Below are positions 19,556-32,630 of a stretch of DNA of 33,398 nucleotides, one piece after another. The number at the start of each line of letters is the position of its first letter. The first letter of the stretch is position 1. The notes under the pieces are model-generated. The model did no database searches, had not been told where the DNA came from, and worked only from the letters and a program-made list of their open reading frames with translations. A program made the translations under genes and the position numbers. The stretch is taken from positions 1 through 33,398 of the forward strand of contig JANQEG010000072.1 in the NCBI GenBank assembly GCA_028278505.1. The letters are read 5' to 3'. The stretch is from Rhodobiaceae bacterium. GTDB taxonomy: Bacteria > Pseudomonadota > Alphaproteobacteria > Rhizobiales > JAKPQE01.

Positions 19556-21369
<1,814 letters not shown>

Positions 21370-21410: not shown

Positions 21411-21440
21411 ACTCTAACGCCGGGGCGGCCAAAGTGTCAA
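21411..21440 (-). promoter_or_regulatory. Predicted bchF operon promoter
   Basis: On the minus strand TTGACA (21440-21435) is followed after 18 bp by TAGAGT (21416-21411), a -10-like hexamer matching TATAAT at four of six positions. The start of transcription would fall near 21404, about 35 nt before the bchF ATG. The -35 hexamer is one half of the degenerate PpsR palindrome described separately, the same geometry as in the bchG promoter. Confidence 0.5.
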
Positions 21441-21468
21441 TTTTATTTTACGTTAAAACTGGTTTACA
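21435..21468. promoter_or_regulatory. Degenerate PpsR-type operator pair
   Basis: The PpsR/CrtJ consensus is TGT-N12-ACA. Here TGT at 21435 is followed after 12 bases by ACG (21450-21452), and CGT at 21451 is followed after 12 bases by ACA (21466-21468). Each site therefore has one mismatch, and they overlap by two bases. Their position over the bchF -35 element supports a repressor role, but binding is uncertain. Confidence 0.45.
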
Positions 21469-21555
21469 ACGCCGCCGCAATTCGACATGCTAAAAGCGCC
21501 AGCAGGGCCGTCAGAACGGAATTGTTATGATCTGCATAATTAGGAAATGCACGTT

Positions 21556-22992
21556 ATGACCGGCCAGACAGAGGGCGATCAACGCCGGCATTTCCGGCGC
21601 CCATCGGTTTGGTTCGATGGAATTGACCCTATCGCCGCCGCCGAAATCGCGGCCGCTGGTTCCGACATCGCCCTCGTTATATCGGACAATGGAAGCGTCG
21701 AAGATCTCACCTATGACGACCCGAGTCTCAAAGACTATCAGCCGGAAAACTGGATCGGAAAGCACTGGGAAACAACGGTAACGGCGGAATGCGTCGACAA
21801 GATCCGCACCATGATGTCGGAAAGCGAGACCGCCGGCGCGACGCGCCGGCGCCAGGTCAATCATCCGGCCAACGGGCTTCCGGATCTGCCGATCACCTAT
21901 GCCGTCGTTCTCGTTGACGGCGCCTCGCGGCGGGTCGCGCTCGGCCAGGATCTTCGCAAATACGCCGAAATCCAGAGCAGATTGCTGCAGAATCAGATCG
22001 AGATGGAGCAGGAATACCGCAGCCTGCGCCAGGCCGAGAGCCGCTATCGGATTCTGTTCAACCTGCTGGTCCAGCCGATGATCGTCGTCGACGGCGAAAC
22101 CGACCGGATTCTCGACGCCAATCGCGCGGCCACGGAGCTGGTCGGCAAGCGCCCCGGCCAGCTCATCGGCGAGGCCGTCATATCGATCTTCGATCGCGCC
22201 GGGCGCAAGCCGGTCGAAGCGGCCTTCGAGAGCGTGCGCCGGCAGGGCACCGACGCCCGCGCGCAGGCGCGGCTGATCAGGCAAAACGGCCCCGTGAAGA
22301 TCGACGTTCAGCCGTTCCGCGACGGCGAAAAGGTCAATGTCATCGTGAAGATAAGGAAGTCGGCGCGAGTAAATGAAGCGTCGGAGGCACGCCCGTCGCT
22401 GGACCGCGACGCGCTGTTTCAAGCCTTCCCGGAAGCCGCCGTCATTACCGACGATTCGGGAACGATCGAACGGCCGAACGACCAGTTTCTGGCGCTCGCC
22501 AAGGCGGTCTCGCCGGCCCAGGTTGTCGGCCGCGATCTCGGCATGTGGATCGGCGCCTCGCCGGTGGACATGCAGCTGCTGCTGTCGGCGGTGAAGGAAC
22601 GCGGGGAAATCCGCAATTTCACGACCGTTTTCAACGATGAGTACGGCACCGCCGTGCCGGTGCGGATTGCCGCCCGCATCCATTCCGAGGGCCTGCCGCC
22701 GCGGATCGGCTTTCTCATTCTGGAAACCGGCGCGCGGGTCGCCGGTCAGCCCTCGGTCGCCGGCGCCCTGCCCTACGAGCCCGCCAGTTTCGGTGAACTG
22801 GTCGGCCGCGTCCCGCTCAAGGAATTGCTGCGCGAAGCCTCTGACATCATTGAAAAACTGTGCATCGAGGCGGCGCTGCGCCAGACCGACAACAACCGCG
22901 CATCGGCGGCCGAAATCCTCGGCCTCAGCCGCCAGAGCCTCTACATCAAGATGCGCCGCCACGGCCTCGGCGGTGCGGAGAATTCAGATTAA
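21556..22992 (+). CDS. ppsR: PpsR/CrtJ-family transcriptional regulator (bchG-linked copy)
   Basis: A 478-residue regulator with the PpsR layout: an N-terminal PAS-like domain (from about 20), a coiled linker QSRLLQNQIEMEQEYRSLRQ (about 140-159), PAS1 (from about 162), PAS2 (from about 285) and a Fis-type helix-turn-helix (NNRASAAEILGLSRQSLY). PpsR represses bch, crt and puc genes in oxygen. Only two cysteines exist, C79 and C436 (EKLCIEAAL, the conserved HTH cysteine); the PAS-region cysteine near 250 of Rhodobacter PpsR is missing. The ATG at 21556 has AGGA ten bases upstream; an ATG at 21547 adds three residues and lies 7 nt after a CATAAT (21535-21540), so a leaderless longer form is possible. 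It is divergent from bchF and lies upstream of bchG. Confidence 0.93.
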   Translation: MTGQTEGDQRRHFRRPSVWFDGIDPIAAAEIAAAGSDIALVISDNGSVEDLTYDDPSLKDYQPENWIGKHWETTVTAECVDKIRTMMSESETAGATRRRQVNHPANGLPDLPITYAVVLVDGASRRVALGQDLRKYAEIQSRLLQNQIEMEQEYRSLRQAESRYRILFNLLVQPMIVVDGETDRILDANRAATELVGKRPGQLIGEAVISIFDRAGRKPVEAAFESVRRQGTDARAQARLIRQNGPVKIDVQPFRDGEKVNVIVKIRKSARVNEASEARPSLDRDALFQAFPEAAVITDDSGTIERPNDQFLALAKAVSPAQVVGRDLGMWIGASPVDMQLLLSAVKERGEIRNFTTVFNDEYGTAVPVRIAARIHSEGLPPRIGFLILETGARVAGQPSVAGALPYEPASFGELVGRVPLKELLREASDIIEKLCIEAALRQTDNNRASAAEILGLSRQSLYIKMRRHGLGGAENSD

Positions 22993-22999
22993 GCGTAAA

Positions 23000-23017
23000 T
23001 GTAAAACAAACGCGACA
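23000..23017. promoter_or_regulatory. PpsR/CrtJ binding site, distal
   Basis: TGT (23000-23002), twelve bases, ACA (23015-23017): exact TGT-N12-ACA match. It is 5 bp from the proximal site, which would allow cooperative binding of a PpsR tetramer as known for paired CrtJ sites. Confidence 0.75.
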
Positions 23018-23022
23018 CAAAG

Positions 23023-23040
23023 TGTCATACTTAATTGACA
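23023..23040. promoter_or_regulatory. PpsR/CrtJ binding site, proximal
   Basis: TGTCATACTTAATTGACA is an exact TGT-N12-ACA match; the dyad extends to AGTGTCA/TGACACT (23021-23042). Its right arm TTGACA is also the predicted bchG -35 hexamer, so a bound regulator would exclude RNA polymerase. Confidence 0.85.
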
Positions 23041-23063
23041 CTTTCGGATTTCACTCCTAGCAT
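23035..23063 (+). promoter_or_regulatory. Predicted bchG promoter, probably giving a leaderless mRNA
   Basis: A perfect -35 TTGACA (23035-23040), 17-bp spacer and TAGCAT (23058-23063, four of six matches to TATAAT). Initiation about seven bases downstream would fall on the A of the bchG ATG (23070). No Shine-Dalgarno sequence is visible before that ATG, which agrees with a leaderless start. Confidence 0.65.
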
Positions 23064-23069
23064 CCCGCC

Positions 23070-23978
23070 ATGAGCGATCTTCGTGCCCTGCAGCGTCCGT
23101 CGCCGGTGCCGACGCCCGGCGCAGTCTTGGCGCTGTTGAAGCCGATCACCTGGTTTCCGCCGATGTGGGCCTATGCCTGCGGGATCGTCTCGGTCGGCGG
23201 CGTCGCCACCGAACGCTGGTGGTTCGTCGTCGGCGGCATTCTGCTCGCCGGGCCGCTGATCTGCGGCACCAGCCAGGCCGTCAATGACTGGTTCGACCGT
23301 CATGTCGACGCCATCAACGAACCGGATCGCGTCATTCCCTCCGGCCGCATGCCCGGACGCTGGGGACTGTGGATAGCGATCGCGACCAGCGCGCTGTCGC
23401 TAATTGTCGCAGCGCTGCTGGGCAAATGGGTGTTCTGGGCCGCCGTTGTCGGCCTGACGCTCGCCTGGGCCTACAGCGCGCCGCCGTTCCGGCTGAAGCA
23501 GAACGGCTGGTGGGGCAATGCCGCGGTCGGGTTCTCCTATGAAAGCCTGCCCTGGTTCACTGCCGCGGCGGCGGCGATCGGCACCTTGCCGCGCCCGGAG
23601 ATCATCATCATCGCCCTGCTCTACGGCCTGGGCGCGCACGGCATCATGACGCTGAACGACTTCAAGGCCGTCACCGGCGATCAGCGCATGGGGATCGCCT
23701 CGCTTCCGGTGCAGCTCGGCGTCGATAACGCCGCCCGGTTGGCCTGCGCGGTCATGGCCGTGCCGCAATTCGCCGTCGTCGCCCTGCTGGTGATCTGGGG
23801 ACAATATTGGGCGGCCGGTGCGGTCGCCACGCTTCTCGCCGTCCAGATCGGCTGCATGATCCATATGCTCGCCGATCCGCGGCAGCGGGCGGTCTGGTAC
23901 TCGGCCGTCGGCGTCGGTCTATATGTGTGCGGAATGATGATCACCGCGGTGGCCCTCGGCATGATGGCGGCCGTATAG
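23070..23978 (+). CDS. bchG: Bacteriochlorophyll synthase
   Basis: A 302-residue UbiA-family prenyltransferase that esterifies bacteriochlorophyllide a with geranylgeranyl (or phytyl) diphosphate. The first Asp-rich motif NDWFDRHVDAINEPDR (87-102) and the second region LNDFKAVTGDQRMG fit chlorophyll synthases; about eight to nine transmembrane helices are present. There is no ribosome-binding site and the predicted promoter ends 6 bp before the ATG. Two consensus PpsR sites lie directly upstream. bch2 follows 19 bp downstream and bchP after it: the usual bchG-bch2-bchP module for tail attachment. Confidence 0.96.
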   Translation: MSDLRALQRPSPVPTPGAVLALLKPITWFPPMWAYACGIVSVGGVATERWWFVVGGILLAGPLICGTSQAVNDWFDRHVDAINEPDRVIPSGRMPGRWGLWIAIATSALSLIVAALLGKWVFWAAVVGLTLAWAYSAPPFRLKQNGWWGNAAVGFSYESLPWFTAAAAAIGTLPRPEIIIIALLYGLGAHGIMTLNDFKAVTGDQRMGIASLPVQLGVDNAARLACAVMAVPQFAVVALLVIWGQYWAAGAVATLLAVQIGCMIHMLADPRQRAVWYSAVGVGLYVCGMMITAVALGMMAAV

Positions 23979-23997
23979 CGCATTTGGAGAGTTGCGG

Positions 23998-25368
23998 ATG
24001 ACGCGGACCGTCTCCGGCAAGGCAGCACCGCTCGGCGGGCTCGGATGGCTCGGCATCCTGCGGCTCGGGCTGGTTCAGGCCAGTCTCGGCTCGATCGTCG
24101 TGCTGACGACGTCGACCCTCAACCGGGTCATGGTCGTCGAGCTGGCGCTCGCCGCCGTCATCCCCGGCGCCCTGGTCAGCCTGCACTATGCGGTCCAGAT
24201 GCTGCGGCCGGTGTGGGGCTATGAATCCGATATCGGCGGCAGCCGCACGCGCTGGATTCTGGGCGGCATGGCGCTGCTTGCCCTGTCCGGCACGGCTGCT
24301 GCGGCCTCGACGATCGTGCTTGAATCGGATTTCTGGATCGGGCTTGCCTGCGCGATCGTCGCCTTCGTCTTCATCGGCTTCGGCATCGGCGCCGCCGGCA
24401 CCTCGCTGCTGGCGCTGCTGGCGAGCCGCACCGCGCCGGAACGGCGCCCGGCGGCGGCCACCATCGTGTGGATGATGATGATCGCCGGCATCGTGCTCAC
24501 CGCCTTCGTTTCCGGCCAATACCTCGATCCCTACTCCCACAACCGGCTGATCCTGATCACCGCGATCGCCGGCGCGATCTCCTTTGCCGTTGCCGGCGGC
24601 GCCGTCGGCCGCATCGAGCGGCGCGTCCCCGACCAGCGTGACGACAGCGCCGACGAGGCCGCGGAGAAGCCGTCGTTCTGGGAAAGCCTCGGCGAAATCT
24701 GGTCGGACCACGATGCCCGGCTGTTCACCGTTTTCGTGTTCACCTCCATGCTCGCCTACAGCATGCAGGATCTGATCCTCGAACCGTTCGGAGGACTGCT
24801 CTACGGACTGGAGCCCGGCGAGACGACGCAGCTTTCCGGCAACCAGCACAGCGGCGTCTTCCTCGGCATGGCAACCGTCGGCATCCTCGGCAGCCTGATG
24901 GCGAAACGAAAATCCAAAATCCTCAAGATGTTCACGATCCTGGGCTGCGTCGGCTCCGGCGTGGCGCTTGGATTGCTGGCGGTGTCTTCCGCCTTTGCAC
25001 CCGACTGGCCGCTGAAGCTCAACATATTCCTGCTCGGATATGCCAACGGCACATTCGCGGTGGCAGCGATCGGGTCGATGATGAGCCTGGCCGGCGCCGG
25101 CGTTAAGTCGCGCGAGGGCATCCGCATGGGGACCTGGGGCGCGGCCCAGGGCATTGCTTTCGGCATCGGCGGCTTCTTCGGCACCGCCGCGATCGACTTC
25201 ACCCGTTACCTGACCGCCGACGTCGCCCAATCCTATGCCTGGGTGTTCTCCGGCGAGGCGTTGCTGTTCCTGTTGGCGGCCTTGATCGCGACCCGGCTCA
25301 ACATGGCGCCGGTTCGACCTCACGCGGTGTCGTCCGCCAAATCCTCCGACTTCCAGCCGGCGGTGTAG
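23998..25368 (+). CDS. bch2: PucC/BCD-family membrane protein between bchG and bchP (Bch2/ORF428)
   Basis: A 456-residue polytopic protein related to LhaA in this window: compare TSTLNRVMVVELAL, YESDIGGSRTRWILGG, YSMQDLILEPFGGLLYGL and GIRMGTWGAAQGIAFGIGGF with their LhaA counterparts. Members at this position (ORF428 or Bch2 of Rhodobacter) belong to the BCD branch of the major facilitator fold and are thought to handle or deliver bacteriochlorophyll; the exact role is unknown. The ATG at 23998 has GGAG eight to nine bases upstream; a TTG two codons earlier is the alternative. bchP follows after 4 bp. Confidence 0.9.
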   Translation: MTRTVSGKAAPLGGLGWLGILRLGLVQASLGSIVVLTTSTLNRVMVVELALAAVIPGALVSLHYAVQMLRPVWGYESDIGGSRTRWILGGMALLALSGTAAAASTIVLESDFWIGLACAIVAFVFIGFGIGAAGTSLLALLASRTAPERRPAAATIVWMMMIAGIVLTAFVSGQYLDPYSHNRLILITAIAGAISFAVAGGAVGRIERRVPDQRDDSADEAAEKPSFWESLGEIWSDHDARLFTVFVFTSMLAYSMQDLILEPFGGLLYGLEPGETTQLSGNQHSGVFLGMATVGILGSLMAKRKSKILKMFTILGCVGSGVALGLLAVSSAFAPDWPLKLNIFLLGYANGTFAVAAIGSMMSLAGAGVKSREGIRMGTWGAAQGIAFGIGGFFGTAAIDFTRYLTADVAQSYAWVFSGEALLFLLAALIATRLNMAPVRPHAVSSAKSSDFQPAV

Positions 25369-25372
25369 AAAG

Positions 25373-26566
25373 ATGAGCACAGACCTTTATGACGCAATCG
25401 TAATCGGCGGCGGGCCGGCCGGAGCCACGGCCGCCCACGATCTGGCCCGGCAGGGGCGGCAGGCGCTGCTTGTCGACCGCGAGGGCCGGCCCAAGCCCTG
25501 CGGCGGCGCGATACCGCCGCGCGCGATCCAGGATTTCGACATTCCCCAGCACCTGCTGACGGCGCGCATCACCGCCGCACGCATGGTCTCGCCGTCCGAC
25601 GCGACCGTCGACATGGTCATCGACAATAACGGCTATGTCGGCATGGTCGACCGCGATGTCTTCGATCCCTGGCTGCGCGACCGCGCCGAAGCGGCCGGCG
25701 CCGAGCGGATCGCCGGGACATTCCAGGGCCTCACCGAGAATAGCGACGGCACGGTGACCGTGTCCGTTAAGGAAAAGGCCGGCGACGGGCCGGCGCGGGA
25801 ATTCCGCGGTCGCGCGGTGATCGGCGCCGACGGCGCCAACTCCCCGGTCCGGCGCGCCGTATTCGGCGGCAAGGTCAAGCCGCCCTTCGTCTTCGCCTAT
25901 CACGAGATCATCCGCTCGCCGCAGGCGGCCAATGGCGAGTTCGACCCGTCGCGCTGCGACGTCGTCTACAATGGCGACATCTCGCCCGATTTCTACGGCT
26001 GGGTCTTTCCCCACGGCCACGCCACCAGCGTCGGCTGCGGCAGCGCCATCAAGGGGTTCGATCTGAAGGCGGCAACGAAGCGGCTACGCACGCAGTCCGG
26101 CCTCGAGGATTGCGAGACCCTGCGCAGCGAGGGCGCGCCCTTGCCCCTGAAGCCGTTGAAGCGCTGGGACAATGGTCGCAATGTCGTGCTCGCCGGTGAT
26201 GCGGCCGGCGTCGTCGCGCCGTCATCGGGCGAGGGCATTTATTATGCCATGCTCGGCGGCCGGCTCGCCGCCGAAGCGGTCGCCGAGATGGTCGTCGACG
26301 CCGACGCAAGCTGCCTGAAGCGCGCGCGCAAGCGGTTCATGAAGGATCACGGGCGTGTCTTCTTCATGCTCCGCATCATGCAGACGATCTGGTACCGCAA
26401 CGACAAGCGGCGCGAGCAGTTCGTGAAGATGTGCCGCGACCCGGACGTCCAGCGCCTGACCTGGGAGTCCTATCTCAACAAGCGGCTGGTGCGGCGCGAT
26501 CCGATGGCGCATCTCCGGGTCTTCTCCAAGGACCTGCAGCAATTGCTCGGTCTTTCGGCCCGATGA
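25373..26566 (+). CDS. bchP: Geranylgeranyl diphosphate/bacteriochlorophyll reductase
   Basis: A 397-residue FAD-dependent reductase that saturates three double bonds of the geranylgeranyl tail to phytyl. The N-terminal dinucleotide-binding motif VIGGGPAGATAAHDLA (10-25), KPCGGAIPPRA, IGADGANSPVRR and the second FAD motif LAGDAAGVVAPSSGEGIYYA are all present. It has the typical length for BchP. It lies 4 bp after bch2, and a small membrane-protein gene follows after 15 bp. Distinguished from other geranylgeranyl reductases by the bchG-bch2-bchP context. Confidence 0.96.
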   Translation: MSTDLYDAIVIGGGPAGATAAHDLARQGRQALLVDREGRPKPCGGAIPPRAIQDFDIPQHLLTARITAARMVSPSDATVDMVIDNNGYVGMVDRDVFDPWLRDRAEAAGAERIAGTFQGLTENSDGTVTVSVKEKAGDGPAREFRGRAVIGADGANSPVRRAVFGGKVKPPFVFAYHEIIRSPQAANGEFDPSRCDVVYNGDISPDFYGWVFPHGHATSVGCGSAIKGFDLKAATKRLRTQSGLEDCETLRSEGAPLPLKPLKRWDNGRNVVLAGDAAGVVAPSSGEGIYYAMLGGRLAAEAVAEMVVDADASCLKRARKRFMKDHGRVFFMLRIMQTIWYRNDKRREQFVKMCRDPDVQRLTWESYLNKRLVRRDPMAHLRVFSKDLQQLLGLSAR

Positions 26567-26581
26567 TAGACGGTTTTCGCC

Positions 26582-26845
26582 GTGTCCGCGTTCGTCCAGT
26601 CCAGCGCCATTGTCGACCTCGCCCTGGCGATTGTGTTCGCCGAGATCGTCCTGTTCACGGTGTTCATCGTCCAGCGCCGGTCCGGATTCCGCCTTTCGCT
26701 GGTCCTTAACGGGCTCGCGGGACTGTTTCTGCTGCTCGCCCTCAAGACCGCCTGGCTGAAGACGGACGGCTATCTGGTCGCGGCCTTTCTGGCTGCAGCC
26801 GCTCTCGCCCATTCCGGCGATGTTTTGCTCCGAATCCGGAGATAG
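26582..26845 (+). CDS. Small membrane protein of unknown function downstream of bchP
   Basis: An 87-residue frame opening with GTG, 15 bp after bchP on the same strand. It has three hydrophobic segments (about 10-30, 37-55 and 62-79) joined by short basic turns (QRRSG) and ends RIRR, consistent with a small integral membrane protein. No motif identifies a function. As I recall, a short hypothetical gene also sits between bchP and tspO in Rhodopseudomonas-type clusters, so a conserved role around BChl tail reduction or the quinone pool is possible but unproven. No strong ribosome-binding site is visible; coupling to bchP is likely. Confidence 0.6.
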   Translation: MSAFVQSSAIVDLALAIVFAEIVLFTVFIVQRRSGFRLSLVLNGLAGLFLLLALKTAWLKTDGYLVAAFLAAAALAHSGDVLLRIRR

Positions 26846-26864
26846 AAACTGCGCTGGATTGCCT

Positions 26865-27368
26865 TTAATCGGCCGCCGGCGCCCCGGCATGAGGATTGCG
26901 CTGCCACACCTGCCAGGTCAGCAGCGCCGCCATCAAGGCCCAGACGAGATAGGGCACGAACAACAGCGCACCCAAGATCGTGACCGGCCATGCGGTAACG
27001 ACAAAGAGCGCGACGACGATCCACAACAGCGTGCCGTCGACAAACGCCAGATCTATTCGCCTGAGGCCGAAAAACAGCCACGACCAGGCGGCGTTGATCA
27101 CCAATTGGGCGCCCCAGAAGATCAGCGCAATGCTCGACGGGTCGAGCCGCCAGACCAGCCAGCCGGCGAACGCGATCATCACGTAGAGCACGCTCCAGAC
27201 CACCGGGAACACCCAGTTCGGCGGGTTCCAGCCGGGCTTGTCGAGCCGGTCGTACCAGGAATCGGGCTTGAAGAAGGCGCCGCTCAAGGAGGTCGCGAAA
27301 ACCAGCGCTGCAAAGACGAAGAAAGCCATCCGCAGTCCATGTCCTGTCTGGGTGGAAACACCGGGCAT
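26865..27368 (-). CDS. tspO: TspO/MBR tryptophan-rich sensory protein (CrtK)
   Basis: A 167-residue five-helix membrane protein of the TspO/MBR family: WYDRLDKPGWNPPNWVFPVV, VWSVLYVMIAF, NAAWSWLFFGLR and LLFVPYLVWA are hallmark segments. Rhodobacter TspO binds tetrapyrroles and modulates photosynthesis gene expression in response to oxygen, in part through the PpsR/AppA pathway. It lies 58 bp after the phytochrome-linked ppsR on the same strand, probably in one transcript, and converges with the gene after bchP (19 bp). The start is uncertain: ATG 27368 gives 167 residues, ATG 27329 (MAFFVFAAL) gives 154, closer to the family length. Confidence 0.93.
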   Translation of the reverse strand: MPGVSTQTGHGLRMAFFVFAALVFATSLSGAFFKPDSWYDRLDKPGWNPPNWVFPVVWSVLYVMIAFAGWLVWRLDPSSIALIFWGAQLVINAAWSWLFFGLRRIDLAFVDGTLLWIVVALFVVTAWPVTILGALLFVPYLVWALMAALLTWQVWQRNPHAGAPAAD

Positions 27369-27426
27369 CACGCCCCGGCCGTCAACATCGGCCGGTGCAT
27401 TGCCAGTCTAACATGCAGGAAGTCGG

Positions 27427-28827
27427 TCAGTCGTCGTCGGAAACAAGTCCATAACGCCGCAGCTTGCTGTAGAGGCCCTGCCGGCTGAGGCCGAGCACCC
27501 GGGCGGTCAGCGCCCGGTTATTGCCGGTCAGCTTCAACGCCGCCTCGATGCAGTTCTTCTCAATCACGTCCATTTCTTCGCGCACGAGGTCCTTCAACGG
27601 AACCTTGCCGATGAGGTCCTCGATCGCCGCGCCGGCCAGCGCCGGTCCCGGATCGCGGCGCTCCGACGCCGGCACCCTGAGCGTCACATTGCGCATCACG
27701 ACCCCGATACCGGGCGGCGTCCCGTCAGGCATCGACACCAGGGAAAGCTCGACATCGGTCGTCTCGCCGGTCGCGCCGCGCAGTCTGGCCGCCAGCATCT
27801 TGACCCGGCCGTGCCGGCGCACGGTCGCAAGCGTCACACCGACATCGAGTTCGGCACCGTCGAAGAACTCGCCCAGCGATCGCGAAAGCAGCGTTTCCAT
27901 GGCGCCGCTCTGGGTCAGAGCGACGAACGCCTCGTTCGCCCACAGGATCTCGCCGCCATCATCGACCAGAACGACGGCCTCGCTGGCGACGTGAATGAGG
28001 CGGGCGAGGTTCTGATCGGCCGGCGCGCTTTCACCGCCCGTGTCGGCCCGGTCCAGATGGACGAAGAACGTCGCCCCATCGCCGACCCGGCACAGCGTCG
28101 CCTTGACGGACAGCGCGCGTCCATCGGCGCTCGCATGGGCGGTCAGGGCTTCGCCCGCGCCGGCGCCCGCAACATGGTCGAGCATGGTCTGGATCGCCGC
28201 CCGGTCGGATTTGGCAAACAGATGTGTCAGGCGCCGCCCCGCCATGGCTTCCGCACCGGTCGCCAACAGGTCGGCGGCGGCCGGATTGGCCTCGCGGATT
28301 TGCCCGTTCGCGGCATCGACGATCAGAGCCGCCTCCGAGCCGATCTGGAACAGCATCCGATAGCGCGCTTCGTCCTGGCGCTGGCGTTCGAAGCTGCGCT
28401 CCATGGCCTGCTGCGAGGTCAGAAGGCGGTCCTGCAGCGCGCGCAGAGGATTGAGGTTGCGCCCCAGCAGCACGACGGCGCCATCCTTGCCGGCATGCAC
28501 GGCGGAATACCGGATCAGCACGCTGTCGCCGTCTGCCGTCGCGTGCTCGACGTCGCAGGCGACCGCACCCTCGCCGCTCGGCGTGGTGCCGATCAGATCG
28601 CGCACCCGCGGGCGCGAATCGGCGGCGACCACGTCATCGAGGCGATCACCGCGCCAGCCAGCGGCGCCGATCTGTTTCAGAACCTCTTGGGCGCCGGCGA
28701 CATCCATGATCACGCCGTCGCCGCCGACGATCAGGGCGATGTCGGAGGCAGCCGCAACGAGCGCGCCCACGGTCTGCGCGTCCGCGCCAGAGAAGTGGAC
28801 TGCGGATTGGAAAAAAGGTGCATTCAC
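27427..28827 (-). CDS. ppsR: PpsR/CrtJ-family transcriptional regulator (bacteriophytochrome-linked copy)
   Basis: A 466-residue regulator with an N-terminal PAS-like domain, coiled linker (LQDRLLTSQQAMERSFERQR), PAS1 (about 153-260), PAS2 (about 275-385) and a Fis-type helix-turn-helix near the end (NNRALTARVLGLSRQGLY). Cysteines are C91, C246 and C426; C246 and C426 (EKNCIEAAL) correspond in place to the C251/C424 and C249/C420 pairs that give redox control to R. sphaeroides PpsR and R. capsulatus CrtJ. By position, beside heme oxygenase and BphP, it matches the PpsR2 of Bradyrhizobium and Rhodopseudomonas, whose repression is relieved by the phytochrome. It starts with GTG (28827) with only a weak ribosome-binding site. 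tspO follows. Confidence 0.93.
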   Translation of the reverse strand: MNAPFFQSAVHFSGADAQTVGALVAAASDIALIVGGDGVIMDVAGAQEVLKQIGAAGWRGDRLDDVVAADSRPRVRDLIGTTPSGEGAVACDVEHATADGDSVLIRYSAVHAGKDGAVVLLGRNLNPLRALQDRLLTSQQAMERSFERQRQDEARYRMLFQIGSEAALIVDAANGQIREANPAAADLLATGAEAMAGRRLTHLFAKSDRAAIQTMLDHVAGAGAGEALTAHASADGRALSVKATLCRVGDGATFFVHLDRADTGGESAPADQNLARLIHVASEAVVLVDDGGEILWANEAFVALTQSGAMETLLSRSLGEFFDGAELDVGVTLATVRRHGRVKMLAARLRGATGETTDVELSLVSMPDGTPPGIGVVMRNVTLRVPASERRDPGPALAGAAIEDLIGKVPLKDLVREEMDVIEKNCIEAALKLTGNNRALTARVLGLSRQGLYSKLRRYGLVSDDD

Positions 28828-28871: not shown

Positions 28872-29099
28872 TATCAGACCCGCTTCAGATACAAATTTGC
28901 TCACACACATTTGACATCCTCGAATACCGCCGAGGTATCTGATGTCAGAGCATAAAACCGCGCCGTTACGCCGCTTGGAACAGCGTCATCATTTTGTTGT
29001 ATTGAACCGGACGGAAGGTTGATAGTGTCGGGGAAACAAGCGAGCGAACGACAACTCGGTGTCAACGAGGTTGCGTATTCGATCGTCGGGGAAGAGACG

Positions 29100-29747
29100 A
29101 TGTCAACGAAGACTACGGTTGGGCCAGGGGCAACCGTTCGGGACGTTCTGCGCGCCAAGACATGGGAAATCCATAAAAAACTGCACCTTCACGCAAGCTT
29201 CGTGGAGCTGTTCAATGAAACGTTGAGTCTCGACGGCTATCGCCTTCTGGTTGAGCGCCTGCACGGATTCTATGCCCCGCTGGACCGGGCGATCGATCAG
29301 GCGCTGGCCGGTGACGCGGCGCAAACCCGGTTTTCCTACGTCGCCCGCGCCGATATACTGGCCCGGGATCTGGCGGACCTTGGACTCGATCGTGGCGCGT
29401 TGGCGGACTCGCCCCAATGTCTTGGCGTTCACGACATCGTTTCGCCACTGACCGTCGGCGGCATCCTCTATGTGGTCGAAGGATCGACCCATGGCGGTTC
29501 CGTCATCGACACCGCAGCGCGCAAGCTTCTCGGCGACCATGCCGGCGGCAGGCGCTATTGGGCGTGGTGTCACGCAGAGAATGAGCGCCGCTGGACGGCG
29601 ACGAATCGCTATCTGGAGCACCTGCGCGCCGAGGGCGCCGCGCTGGAAGACCTTGTCGCCGGAGCGCGCGGAACATTTCAGCTCATGGCAGAATGGCTGG
29701 CACCGTTGAACCGATCCCCCGCCAAGGTTGAAAAGGGCATGTCGTGA
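29100..29747 (+). CDS. bphO: Biliverdin-producing heme oxygenase (bacteriophytochrome-associated)
   Basis: A 215-residue heme oxygenase of the bacterial phytochrome-associated group (called HmuO in Bradyrhizobium). It opens heme to biliverdin, the BphP chromophore. The proximal heme-ligand histidine is H25 in LRAKTWEIHKKLH, and the distal-helix glycines are in LYVVEGSTHGGSVID (124-138). The ATG at 29100 gives the normal size; the frame is open upstream to 29019, but that part has no family similarity. The stop overlaps the bphP start (GTGA, 29744-29747), so enzyme and apoprotein are translationally coupled. Confidence 0.92.
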   Translation: MSTKTTVGPGATVRDVLRAKTWEIHKKLHLHASFVELFNETLSLDGYRLLVERLHGFYAPLDRAIDQALAGDAAQTRFSYVARADILARDLADLGLDRGALADSPQCLGVHDIVSPLTVGGILYVVEGSTHGGSVIDTAARKLLGDHAGGRRYWAWCHAENERRWTATNRYLEHLRAEGAALEDLVAGARGTFQLMAEWLAPLNRSPAKVEKGMS

Positions 29748-32041
29748 GCACCGGATCCGTCGACCTCGACACTTGCGACCGCGAGCCCATTCACCTGATC
29801 GGCGCCATCCAGCCCCATGGCGCGCTCATCGCGGCCGACGAGAAGAGCGCGATCATCGACTACGCCAGCGCCAACACCGCGTCCTTTATCGGGTGGGAAA
29901 CGGAGGCGCTTCTCGGCAAAGGGCTGGTCGATCTGGTCGGCAGCGACAATCTCGCCGAGCTGCAACGGTTTCCGCTGACGCCGTCAACGCCCGAACTCCT
30001 GAAGCCCTGGTTCATCAAGGTTGCGGCCTGTGACCGGACCCCGATCGCAGTCGAGTGCCTGCCCCACCGCAATAACGGCCACATCATCCTGGAATTCCTG
30101 CCCCGCGAGGCAAACCCGGCCTCGGTCTGGGAAGACGAGATCCTCCGCCAGGGGATCATTTCCGAGCTCACCAAGCCGAACGCGCTCGCCGAACTGGCCG
30201 ATCTCAGCGCCGAGATCATCCGCAACGTGACCGGCTTCGACCGCGTCATGATCTATAAGTTCGCGGAGGACAAGCACGGCGAGGTCATCGCCGAGAGCAC
30301 GGACCGGCCGGACAGTTTCCTCGGACTGCACTATCCGGCCTCGGACATTCCCGACCCGGCCCGGCGCCATTTCTCGCTCAATGTCATGCGGTCGATTCCC
30401 GACATCAATGGCACCCACGTTGCGATCGTCAACCGCGCCGGTGCGATCGCCGACGCCGATGCCGCCCGGCCGCTCGACCTGACCTATTCCAAATTGCGCG
30501 CGGTCGCGCCGGTCCATGTGGAATATCTCAACAATATGGGCGTCAAGGCGAGCCTGTCGATCTCGCTCATCACCAACAACGAGCTCTGGGGCCTGATCGC
30601 CTGCCATCACTACGACACGCGCTACATATCGTCGAGCCGGTTGCGGTTCACCGAGCTTCTGGGCGGGACCATATCGGCGCTGCTCCAGAGCATCGAAAAC
30701 ACCAACCAGCTTCGCAAGAGCATCACGGCGGAGAAATTCGCCTTCAAGATCGAACAGAAAGCCCGTGCCGGAATGCCGCTGAGCGATCTGCTGACAGAAC
30801 ACGCCCCGGCCTTGACGGAGCTGGTGAACGCTCAAGGCATGGTGGTGGCGCTCGGTGGTCACGTTTTCGAACTCGGATCCGCACAGGCCAAATCGCTGGA
30901 TTTCAGCAATTTGCGAAAACACGTCGTCGACGGCATCGCCACGACATCGCACCTGTCCGGTCTGATTGATCTCGATGACGAACAAAGGCAGGCAGCGGCC
31001 GGCGCGGCCTTGCTGGAATTGTCGGAAGACGGCGACGACTATCTGGTGCTGCTGCGCAAGCATTTCGAAGAGATCGTTCGCTGGGCCGGCAAACCGGACA
31101 AGATCGAAATCCGCAGAGAGGACGGCACGATCCGGCTGTCGCCGCGCGGTTCGTTCGAGCTTTGGCGCGAAGAGCGCCTGGGCAAGAGCCAACCCTTCGA
31201 TGTCCTGGACAAGGACGCGCTCCGGATTATCCGCCGGGCATTGTTCGCCCTCAACAGCCTTGAACGCGAGCGCGCCGCGCTGGAGGCGCAACGGAGCGCC
31301 GAGGCCGAGGAGATCCGGCTCAGGCACGCACTTCTGGATGCCGCCCGCACGAGTTCGATGGGCGAACTCGCCTCGGCGATCGCCCATGAACTGAACCAGC
31401 CCCTGTCGGCGGTGGCCAACTACGTCAATGCGTGTCGCCAGGAATTTCACAATGCCGGCCTGGACATCCCCGATCGCGCCAAGGAACTCATCAATGAAGC
31501 GGTGATCGAATCCGCGCGCGCCGGCGACCTGGTGCGCCGCATGCGGAACTTCATTTCACAGGGCGATCTGAATACCGACTTCATCGACATCAACCAGGCG
31601 ATCGGCCACGGCATCGACCTTGCGCTGGTCACCAAGGATCTGCCGGAATTGCAGGTGATCAAGGCGTTCGGCGCCGATCTGCCGAAAGTCTGGGCCGATC
31701 CCGTTCAAATCGCGCAAGTGGTGTTGAACCTGGCGCGAAACAGCATTGCCGCGATGGCCGGCCAGCCGAAACCGATCCTCACCATCGAAACGATAGAACG
31801 CGACGGCCGCATTGAAGTGACCGTCCGCGACACCGGCAGGGGCATTCCCAAGGAGCTGAAGGACAAACTTTTCGATCCCTTCCATACCTCGACGACGCAC
31901 GGGATGGGGATCGGGCTGTCGCTGTGCCGCTCCATAATCGAGGCGCATGCCGGTCGAATCTGGGCAGAATCTTCAGCCAACGGCACAGAAGTGATATTCC
32001 GCCTTCCGATACGAGAGGAGCATAATGACCAAACCAAATAG
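29744..32041 (+). CDS. bphP: Bacteriophytochrome sensor histidine kinase
   Basis: A 765-residue red/far-red photoreceptor with a GTG start. The biliverdin-binding cysteine is C11 in DLDTCDREPIH, followed by the PAS domain (IGAIQPHGALI), a GAF domain with PASDIP (198-203, invariant aspartate D201) and VHVEYLNNMGV, and a PHY domain whose tongue carries PRGSFELWREE. The output half is a HisKA domain with H548 in AHELNQPLSAVANY, closely resembling FixL-type transmitters, and a HATPase domain with N-box NLARNSIAAM (662-671), DTGRGIP and GMGIGLSLC. All residues needed for chromophore binding and kinase activity are visible. It overlaps bphO by 4 bp and the response regulator gene by 17 bp. Confidence 0.96.
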   Translation: MSTGSVDLDTCDREPIHLIGAIQPHGALIAADEKSAIIDYASANTASFIGWETEALLGKGLVDLVGSDNLAELQRFPLTPSTPELLKPWFIKVAACDRTPIAVECLPHRNNGHIILEFLPREANPASVWEDEILRQGIISELTKPNALAELADLSAEIIRNVTGFDRVMIYKFAEDKHGEVIAESTDRPDSFLGLHYPASDIPDPARRHFSLNVMRSIPDINGTHVAIVNRAGAIADADAARPLDLTYSKLRAVAPVHVEYLNNMGVKASLSISLITNNELWGLIACHHYDTRYISSSRLRFTELLGGTISALLQSIENTNQLRKSITAEKFAFKIEQKARAGMPLSDLLTEHAPALTELVNAQGMVVALGGHVFELGSAQAKSLDFSNLRKHVVDGIATTSHLSGLIDLDDEQRQAAAGAALLELSEDGDDYLVLLRKHFEEIVRWAGKPDKIEIRREDGTIRLSPRGSFELWREERLGKSQPFDVLDKDALRIIRRALFALNSLERERAALEAQRSAEAEEIRLRHALLDAARTSSMGELASAIAHELNQPLSAVANYVNACRQEFHNAGLDIPDRAKELINEAVIESARAGDLVRRMRNFISQGDLNTDFIDINQAIGHGIDLALVTKDLPELQVIKAFGADLPKVWADPVQIAQVVLNLARNSIAAMAGQPKPILTIETIERDGRIEVTVRDTGRGIPKELKDKLFDPFHTSTTHGMGIGLSLCRSIIEAHAGRIWAESSANGTEVIFRLPIREEHNDQTK

Positions 32042-32630
32042 AACATTCTCCATCTACGTGGTCGAAGATGACGCTTCGGTTCTAAGATCGGTGTGCGCGC
32101 TGCTCAATTCGCACGGCTATGAGACGATCGCCTGCGCCTCCGCGGAAGAATTTCTCGAGGTTTACGACTCCGAACTCGAGGCCTGCATGCTGCTTGATCT
32201 GCGCATGCCGGGGATGAGCGGCATCGACCTGCAGGCACATTTGAACGCCATCAATGCCAGCATCCCGATCATCATCGTCACCGCCCATGGCGACGTTCCG
32301 ATCGCGGTGCGGGCGATGAAGGCCGGTGCCGTCGACTTCATCGAGAAGCCGGCCCAGGTCGACCAGCTTCTGGAAGCCGTCCAGCTCGCCGGCGCCGTCC
32401 TCACCAATCGGTCGGTTCCCCGCGTTCCCGACGAGGTCGTCGCCGATCGCATGTCCCGGCTGACCGAGCGGGAACGCGAAGTCCTCCAGCACCTCGTTCT
32501 CGGCAAGCTCAACAAAGAAATCGCCAACGAACTGGGGATCAGTCAGCGCACCATCGAAATCCACCGGTCGCGCATACGCGAAAAGATGCATGCCCGCGGC
32601 ATCTCGGACCTGATCCGCATGGTCCGGTGA
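32025..32630 (+). CDS. FixJ-like DNA-binding response regulator
   Basis: A 201-residue protein with an N-terminal receiver: acidic pair EDD (14-16), phospho-acceptor D58 (CMLLDLRMPGMSG), T86 and K108. The C-terminal LuxR/FixJ helix-turn-helix is LTEREREVLQHLVLGKLNKE...QRTIEIHRSRI, about 144-190. GAGGAG precedes the ATG. It overlaps bphP by 17 bp and is thus the obvious partner of the FixL-like phytochrome kinase. No sigma-54 domain is present. Its targets are unknown; photosynthesis genes are the natural guess from context. Confidence 0.93.
   Translation: MTKPNRTFSIYVVEDDASVLRSVCALLNSHGYETIACASAEEFLEVYDSELEACMLLDLRMPGMSGIDLQAHLNAINASIPIIIVTAHGDVPIAVRAMKAGAVDFIEKPAQVDQLLEAVQLAGAVLTNRSVPRVPDEVVADRMSRLTEREREVLQHLVLGKLNKEIANELGISQRTIEIHRSRIREKMHARGISDLIRMVR

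Follow-up and report, generated by a model that had tools for sequence, protein, structure and literature searches.

The window analysed here is a stretch of 33,398 nucleotides from a Rhodobiaceae bacterium (assembly GCA_028278505.1, contig JANQEG010000072.1). It is a photosynthesis gene cluster, in which the following genes are relevant:

left part of the window, + strand: bchZ, pufL and pufC
middle of the window, - strand: bchFNB, bchL, bchM, puhA, puhB and puhE
20854..21369, - strand: bchF (TIGR02020)
21547..22992, + strand: ppsR copy 1, 481 aa, PAS and Fis-type HTH (TIGR02040, 353.9 bits; cut-off 275.4)
23070..23978, + strand: bchG, bacteriochlorophyll synthase, 302 aa (NF005742, 396.4 bits; TIGR01476, 341 bits)
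23998..25368, + strand: pucC-like gene (PF03209, 316.2 bits)
25373..26566, + strand: bchP, geranylgeranyl reductase (TIGR02023, 495.8 bits)
27427..28827, - strand: ppsR copy 2, PAS and HTH_8 (TIGR02040, 347.7 bits)

The first ppsR copy is located directly upstream of bchG, and 77 bases separate its stop at 22992 from the bchG ATG at 23070. A preliminary description of this DNA called BchG the last step of bacteriochlorophyll synthesis. This is slightly wrong, as BchP, encoded by the next gene but one, reduces the bacteriochlorophyll tail. The pucC-like gene has a Shine-Dalgarno (SD)-like GGAG before its start; its mechanically defined open reading frame begins at a TTG at 23992. Both ppsR genes of the genome score above the curated cut-off, and both lie within the window. 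The second copy resides beyond bchP, near a set of genes for a heme oxygenase, a bacteriophytochrome kinase and a LuxR-type response regulator (29019-32630). An open reading frame of 222 aa between bchP and this copy (26820-27488, + strand) has no Pfam or NCBIfam match and is possibly no gene.

The sequence immediately ahead of bchG contains these features:

23000..23017, + strand: distal PpsR-type box TGTAAAACAAACGCGACA, exact TGT-N12-ACA, at -70..-53 of the bchG ATG
23023..23040, + strand: proximal PpsR-type box TGTCATACTTAATTGACA, exact TGT-N12-ACA, at -47..-30 of the ATG
23035..23040, + strand: -35 hexamer TTGACA from the promoter scan, forming the 3' half of that box
23058..23063, + strand: -10 hexamer TAGCAT, at -12..-7 of the ATG, with a 17-bp spacer from TTGACA
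23070, + strand: predicted transcription start, coinciding with the A of the bchG start codon, the seventh base after the -10 hexamer, leader 0 nt (uncertainty about 0-3 nt)

The preliminary description had proposed two exact sites 5 bp apart, a TTGACA within the proximal one and a TAGCAT 17 bp further on, and all of these were confirmed. Six nucleotides separate TAGCAT from the ATG. Reading of the sequence also reveals a perfect inverted repeat with 9-bp arms, AAAGTGTCA-N8-TGACACTTT (23019-23044), which has the proximal box at its core. In the 1.1 kb scanned, the only sigma-70-like site is the bchG promoter, and shuffled sequences gave a mean of 0.1.

Single TGT-N12-ACA sites carry no significance of their own, because their counts are not above chance: the window has three where 2.08 are expected, and the 3.35-Mb assembly has 269 versus 300 in a reversed control. 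More specific arrangements are rare. Two boxes with 5 bp between them occur once in the genome, as does a box with an embedded TTGAC and a TAnnnT at 17 bp, and the reversed control has neither.

The TAG at 23058-23060 inside the -10 hexamer is an in-frame stop 12 bases ahead of the ATG, so no start codon further upstream can yield BchG. Ahead of residue 20, a GTG at 23106 is the sole alternative start. The claim that bchG is not preceded by an SD also holds, since the window sequence from 23040 to 23069 has nothing SD-like. It was considered whether the G of TAGcnT-type -10 hexamers is kept as part of an in-frame stop. This idea was rejected, because the share of TAG among relatives is the same when it falls in frame (42/74) as when it falls one base out of frame (13/23).

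Together, these features suggest, with a probability of about 0.8, that bchG has its own sigma-70-type promoter fused to the start codon, with a PpsR-type operator over the -35 element, and yields a leaderless mRNA. The +1 position is predicted at the ATG from the placement of TTGACA and TAGCAT, because an initiator-like C precedes the A and the coordinates match those of the Rhodobacter capsulatus bchC promoter described below. We infer that RNA polymerase would initiate at the A of the ATG, producing an mRNA that begins with AUG and lacks an SD. With transcription starting on the ATG itself, translation of bchG would be leaderless by necessity and would use the leaderless pathway (by 70S or by start-codon recognition). 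Under repressing conditions, PpsR, a repressor linked to light and oxygen, would bind to the box in this host and shut RNA polymerase out of the -35 element, and its release would turn on bchG-pucC-bchP. The downstream pucC-like and bchP genes would mostly use ordinary SD sequences, judging by relatives.

The generality of this arrangement was examined in 179 bchG loci from three overlapping samples. One holds 73 loci of one order (the window included; seven weak or off-target matches with E values of 3.7e-9 to 6.2e-4 left out), another the best 80 of 591 matches in genome contigs, and the last 30 of the 31 matches from a phylum sample. Grouping by shared 8-mers gave 149 clusters, and the 148 with 120 nt upstream of the start form the non-redundant set. 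A start is called TA-led when a TAnnnT begins 11-14 bases ahead of the start codon. This criterion is loose, and the start rule ignores the promoter but favours an ATG near the expected residue; scored in this way, 103 of the 148 bchG starts (70%) are TA-led, versus 0/60 for ppsR, 0/102 for pucC-like genes and 0/80 for bchP. Other four-wide windows upstream of bchG have TAnnnT in 1-14% of cases. TA-led bchG starts are found in every sample (54/73 in the order, 56/80 in genome contigs and 20/30 in the phylum), and carriers known by name include Hoeflea, Methylobacterium, Ectothiorhodospira and a betaproteobacterial genome bin. Clustering at 70% protein identity leaves 51 groups, of which 34 have mostly TA-led members; thus, relatedness raises the counts but does not create the pattern.

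Further properties of these starts fit leaderless translation. With the SD threshold fixed at -3.4 kcal/mol for the duplex to CCUCCU, an SD precedes only 9 of the 103 TA-led bchG starts, versus 18 of the 45 other bchG starts, 85 of 102 pucC-like starts and 69 of 80 bchP starts. The start codon is ATG in all 54 TA-led loci of the order sample and in 125 of 127 when all loci are counted, and 52 of these 127 offer no start ahead of residue 20 other than the one chosen. A pyrimidine directly before the start, found in 92/103 TA-led bchG loci versus 66/102 for pucC-like genes, 51/80 for bchP and 32/60 for ppsR, would fit the A of the ATG as the initiating nucleotide. This is supporting evidence only, because C is the commonest base at -1 in the controls too (55% for pucC-like genes and 59% for bchP). 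The leaderless mRNA of the preliminary description is therefore strongly supported by the comparison of loci, and the transcription start itself is a prediction. Comparison of sequences thus gives good support for a leaderless bchG start, and the SD-independent, apparently leaderless arrangement is conserved in most of the loci examined; it is common, not universal.

A measurement that ignores the start codon gives a similar picture. In the 500 bases ahead of residue 20, TGT-N9-TTGAC[AG] is present in 119 of the 179 loci. A TAnnnT follows this box at 17 bp in 84 of the 119, at 18 bp in 15 and at 16 bp in five, with at most four loci at any other spacing. With in-frame starts fewer than 8 bases on disregarded, the first one comes 29-31 bases after the box in 95 of the 119. 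These figures bear on the proposal that the -35 and -10 elements are a chance match within a PpsR operator and that bchG is transcribed only from ppsR. The -35 sequence does come free with the box, as most of the PpsR motifs in Table 2 of PMC4344238 contain TTGACA, and bchG overlaps ppsR in some lineages (for example, L044 and L045, labelled Bradyrhizobium). However, a TAnnnT lies 17-18 bp from the box in 99/119 loci and rarely elsewhere, and bchF behaves likewise. Moreover, ppsR is more than 1 kb from bchG in some TA-led loci (L019, L022, L024 and L025). A chance match is accordingly very improbable.

Start-site choice commonly shifts by a few nucleotides, and an alternative that deserves more weight is that the promoter is real and controlled by PpsR but that its transcripts begin 3-9 nt before the ATG, or that the mRNA arises mainly by read-through from ppsR. 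The mRNA would then be SD-independent without being truly leaderless. A minority of loci have 7 or 8 nt between the -10 element and the ATG; against this, the 6-nt class dominates, with a 17-bp spacer, 6 nt and ATG in 42 of the 81 representatives that have a box, a -10 element and a start, and pyrimidines stand just ahead of the A. In the window, ppsR is on the same strand and the scan found no + strand terminator between the two genes, so that read-through could add some leadered bchG mRNA even if the promoter reading is correct. However, the spacing is kept in loci where ppsR is distant. We regard this alternative as unlikely. It was also considered whether the short distance simply reflects crowding of ppsR and bchG; this was rejected, since 24 of the 88 TA-led loci with an upstream ppsR have a gap of more than 150 nt.

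The position of the operator is more variable than that of the start. In the 103 TA-led loci, a box covers the -35 element in strict form in 76 and in relaxed form in 17, covers the -10 element in nine and is missing from one. Eight of the nine loci with a box on the -10 element belong to a single family, f60, in the phylum sample, and the ninth (L098) is labelled Rhodobacter sp. Those f60 loci that were inspected by eye have a TTGCC-type -35, 18 bp, a TAnnCT-type -10, 6-7 bases and the ATG, so the leaderless spacing is unchanged. Ten plasmid records, whose starts were annotated by others, also have bchG starting directly behind a promoter or box: those of Novosphingobium and Thiodictyon have the -35 layout, and in eight from Rhodobacterales the box ends 1-3 bases ahead of the ATG. 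In L197, which is R. sphaeroides by motif and coordinate, the ChIP motif (1501-1520) lies within bchG codons 2-8 and is a putative downstream operator. A second, imperfect box in this locus covers a -10-like TTAGGT, which does not match TAnnnT. The operator may move between the -35 element, the -10 element and the coding sequence with the bchG start staying leaderless. The close doublet of the window is not a conserved layout; an exact second box within 15 nt upstream occurs in only 8 of 106 loci with a proximal box.

The 45 representatives that are not TA-led fall into several groups. No strict box is present in 27, and in nine of these bchG overlaps ppsR or starts at most 9 nt behind it. In 11 others a strict box begins 44-49 bases before the chosen start and the -10 element is imperfect or shifted, in four the box is close to the start and in one it is far upstream. 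The remaining two (L016 and L030) have a true leader, with the box upstream and tens of nucleotides before the ATG. L016 and L030, together with L097, keep the box and have bchG leaders of tens of nucleotides, and are natural leadered counterparts of the arrangement. Two loci scored as not TA-led (L136 and L166) look like mis-assigned starts and were left in this class, which counts against the leaderless reading.

The bchF gene of the same cluster provides a control for PpsR promoters in general. Its promoter in the window has two elements:

21435..21452, - strand: degenerate box CGTAAAATAAAATTGACA over the bchF -35 element
21416-21411, - strand: bchF -10 element TAGAGT, spacer 18

In the window, 41 nt separate this -10 element from the bchF ATG. 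The comparison set comes from the same order: 73 genomes gave a match, the best 30 were taken, and one without a usable start was dropped to leave 29; [TC]GT was allowed as the first triplet of the box. A box covers the -35 element in 28 of the 29 loci and one has no box; TAnnnT follows at 16-18 bp in 25 of the 28. The bchF promoter is thus like that of bchG, with a box over the -35 element and a -10 element at 17-18 bp in most relatives. It differs in having a leader, of 22-67 nt from -10 to ATG where a -10 element was found, and an SD in most relatives (25/29); one of the 29 scored as TA-led. This control rejects the idea that PpsR promoters are leaderless in general. Because bchF has a similar box and -10 spacing but a leader, the leaderless start belongs to bchG and not to PpsR promoters.

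Published systems offer parallels for the operator. According to PMC5362033, the R. capsulatus bchC promoter has two CrtJ palindromes, which span -47..-30 and -21..-4 relative to the transcription start. The likeness to bchG is a TGT-N12-ACA over the -35 element, at -47..-30 in both if the bchG ATG is taken as +1. The second full palindrome of bchC covers the -10 element, whereas the second full box of the window is upstream, and the bchC passages of PMC5362033 do not mention a leaderless mRNA, unlike what is predicted for bchG. In the main class of bchG loci (53 clusters aligned), the conserved box is also at -47..-30 of the ATG, and the alignment has a weak TGTCA-like half-site from -21, a position at which 23 of 66 loci carry an exact TGT. 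The window bchG lacks this lower bchC-like half-site, and its upper site is exactly at -47..-30.

Control of bchG by PpsR, the second part of the original proposal, was shown in R. sphaeroides only. PMC4344238 gives a 7.8-fold PpsR ChIP enrichment for bchG-pucC-bchP and an expression value of -8.03 in the ppsR comparison. Gene order and regulator are alike in the two organisms, with PpsR bound in vivo in R. sphaeroides, but the boxes there are over the -10 element and inside the first codons, and the window box is over the -35 element. The conserved box over the -35 element and the R. sphaeroides ChIP-seq data (PMC4344238) make PpsR control of the window bchG plausible by analogy. The window also has two hallmarks of a PpsR/CrtJ promoter, with a palindrome over the -35 element and ppsR in the genome. 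It might instead be that the box serves another regulator, or that PpsR activates here, in which case the claim of repression would be wrong. Two ppsR paralogs are present in the genome, and the introduction of PMC5362033 states that the CrtJ homolog of Rubrivivax is believed to act as repressor as well as activator. On the other hand, a box over the -35 element is in a repressor position, and PMC4344238 lists R. sphaeroides bchG as a PpsR target with changed expression in a ppsR mutant. Activation or a different regulator is quite unlikely, and we favour repression by PpsR.

Leaderless bacterial genes are marked by a TANNNT about 12 bp before the start, according to PMC3160421. The likeness to bchG extends to the missing SD and the AUG start, and the window gene, with TAGCAT at -12..-7, no SD and ATG, belongs by sequence with these TA-led genes. 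Sinorhizobium meliloti has 171 leaderless starts, all AUG (PMC3616915), and 7% of Methylorubrum extorquens mRNAs are leaderless, counted as leaders of 0-9 nt (PMC9320726). Such published lists are genome-wide and usually catalogue leaderless genes per species. In contrast, bchG is one photosynthesis enzyme gene that appears to keep the trait over many genera and with two operator layouts. No paper calling bchG leaderless was found in the literature searched, which has most subscription journals outside its reach.

With bchG leaderless-looking in approximately 70% of non-redundant loci, spread over Alpha-, Beta- and Gammaproteobacteria, and because a leader is retained by its bchF neighbour, which has the same type of switch, the arrangement appears to be a conserved trait of bchG rather than a peculiarity of one genome. 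A tentative extension, which we consider possible but doubtful, is that, across phototrophic Proteobacteria, selection on bchG acts on leaderlessness itself. A mode of initiation separate from that of the surrounding genes, its operon partners included, would then yield BchG, the enzyme that adds the tail to bacteriochlorophyll, disproportionately to the other steps of the pathway under conditions that favour leaderless mRNAs, and would serve as a checkpoint, at the level of translation, on the completion of the pigment. The coupling to ribosome state suggested in the preliminary description is, likewise, a hypothesis. The bchG/bchF combination is a natural pair that makes the use of leaderless mRNA directly testable.

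There is also a consequence for genome annotation, as start prediction based on SD sequences has little to go on at bchG. The start of ppsR is itself poorly defined by the start rule used here, being GTG in 30 of 60 loci and preceded by an SD in only 19 of 60.
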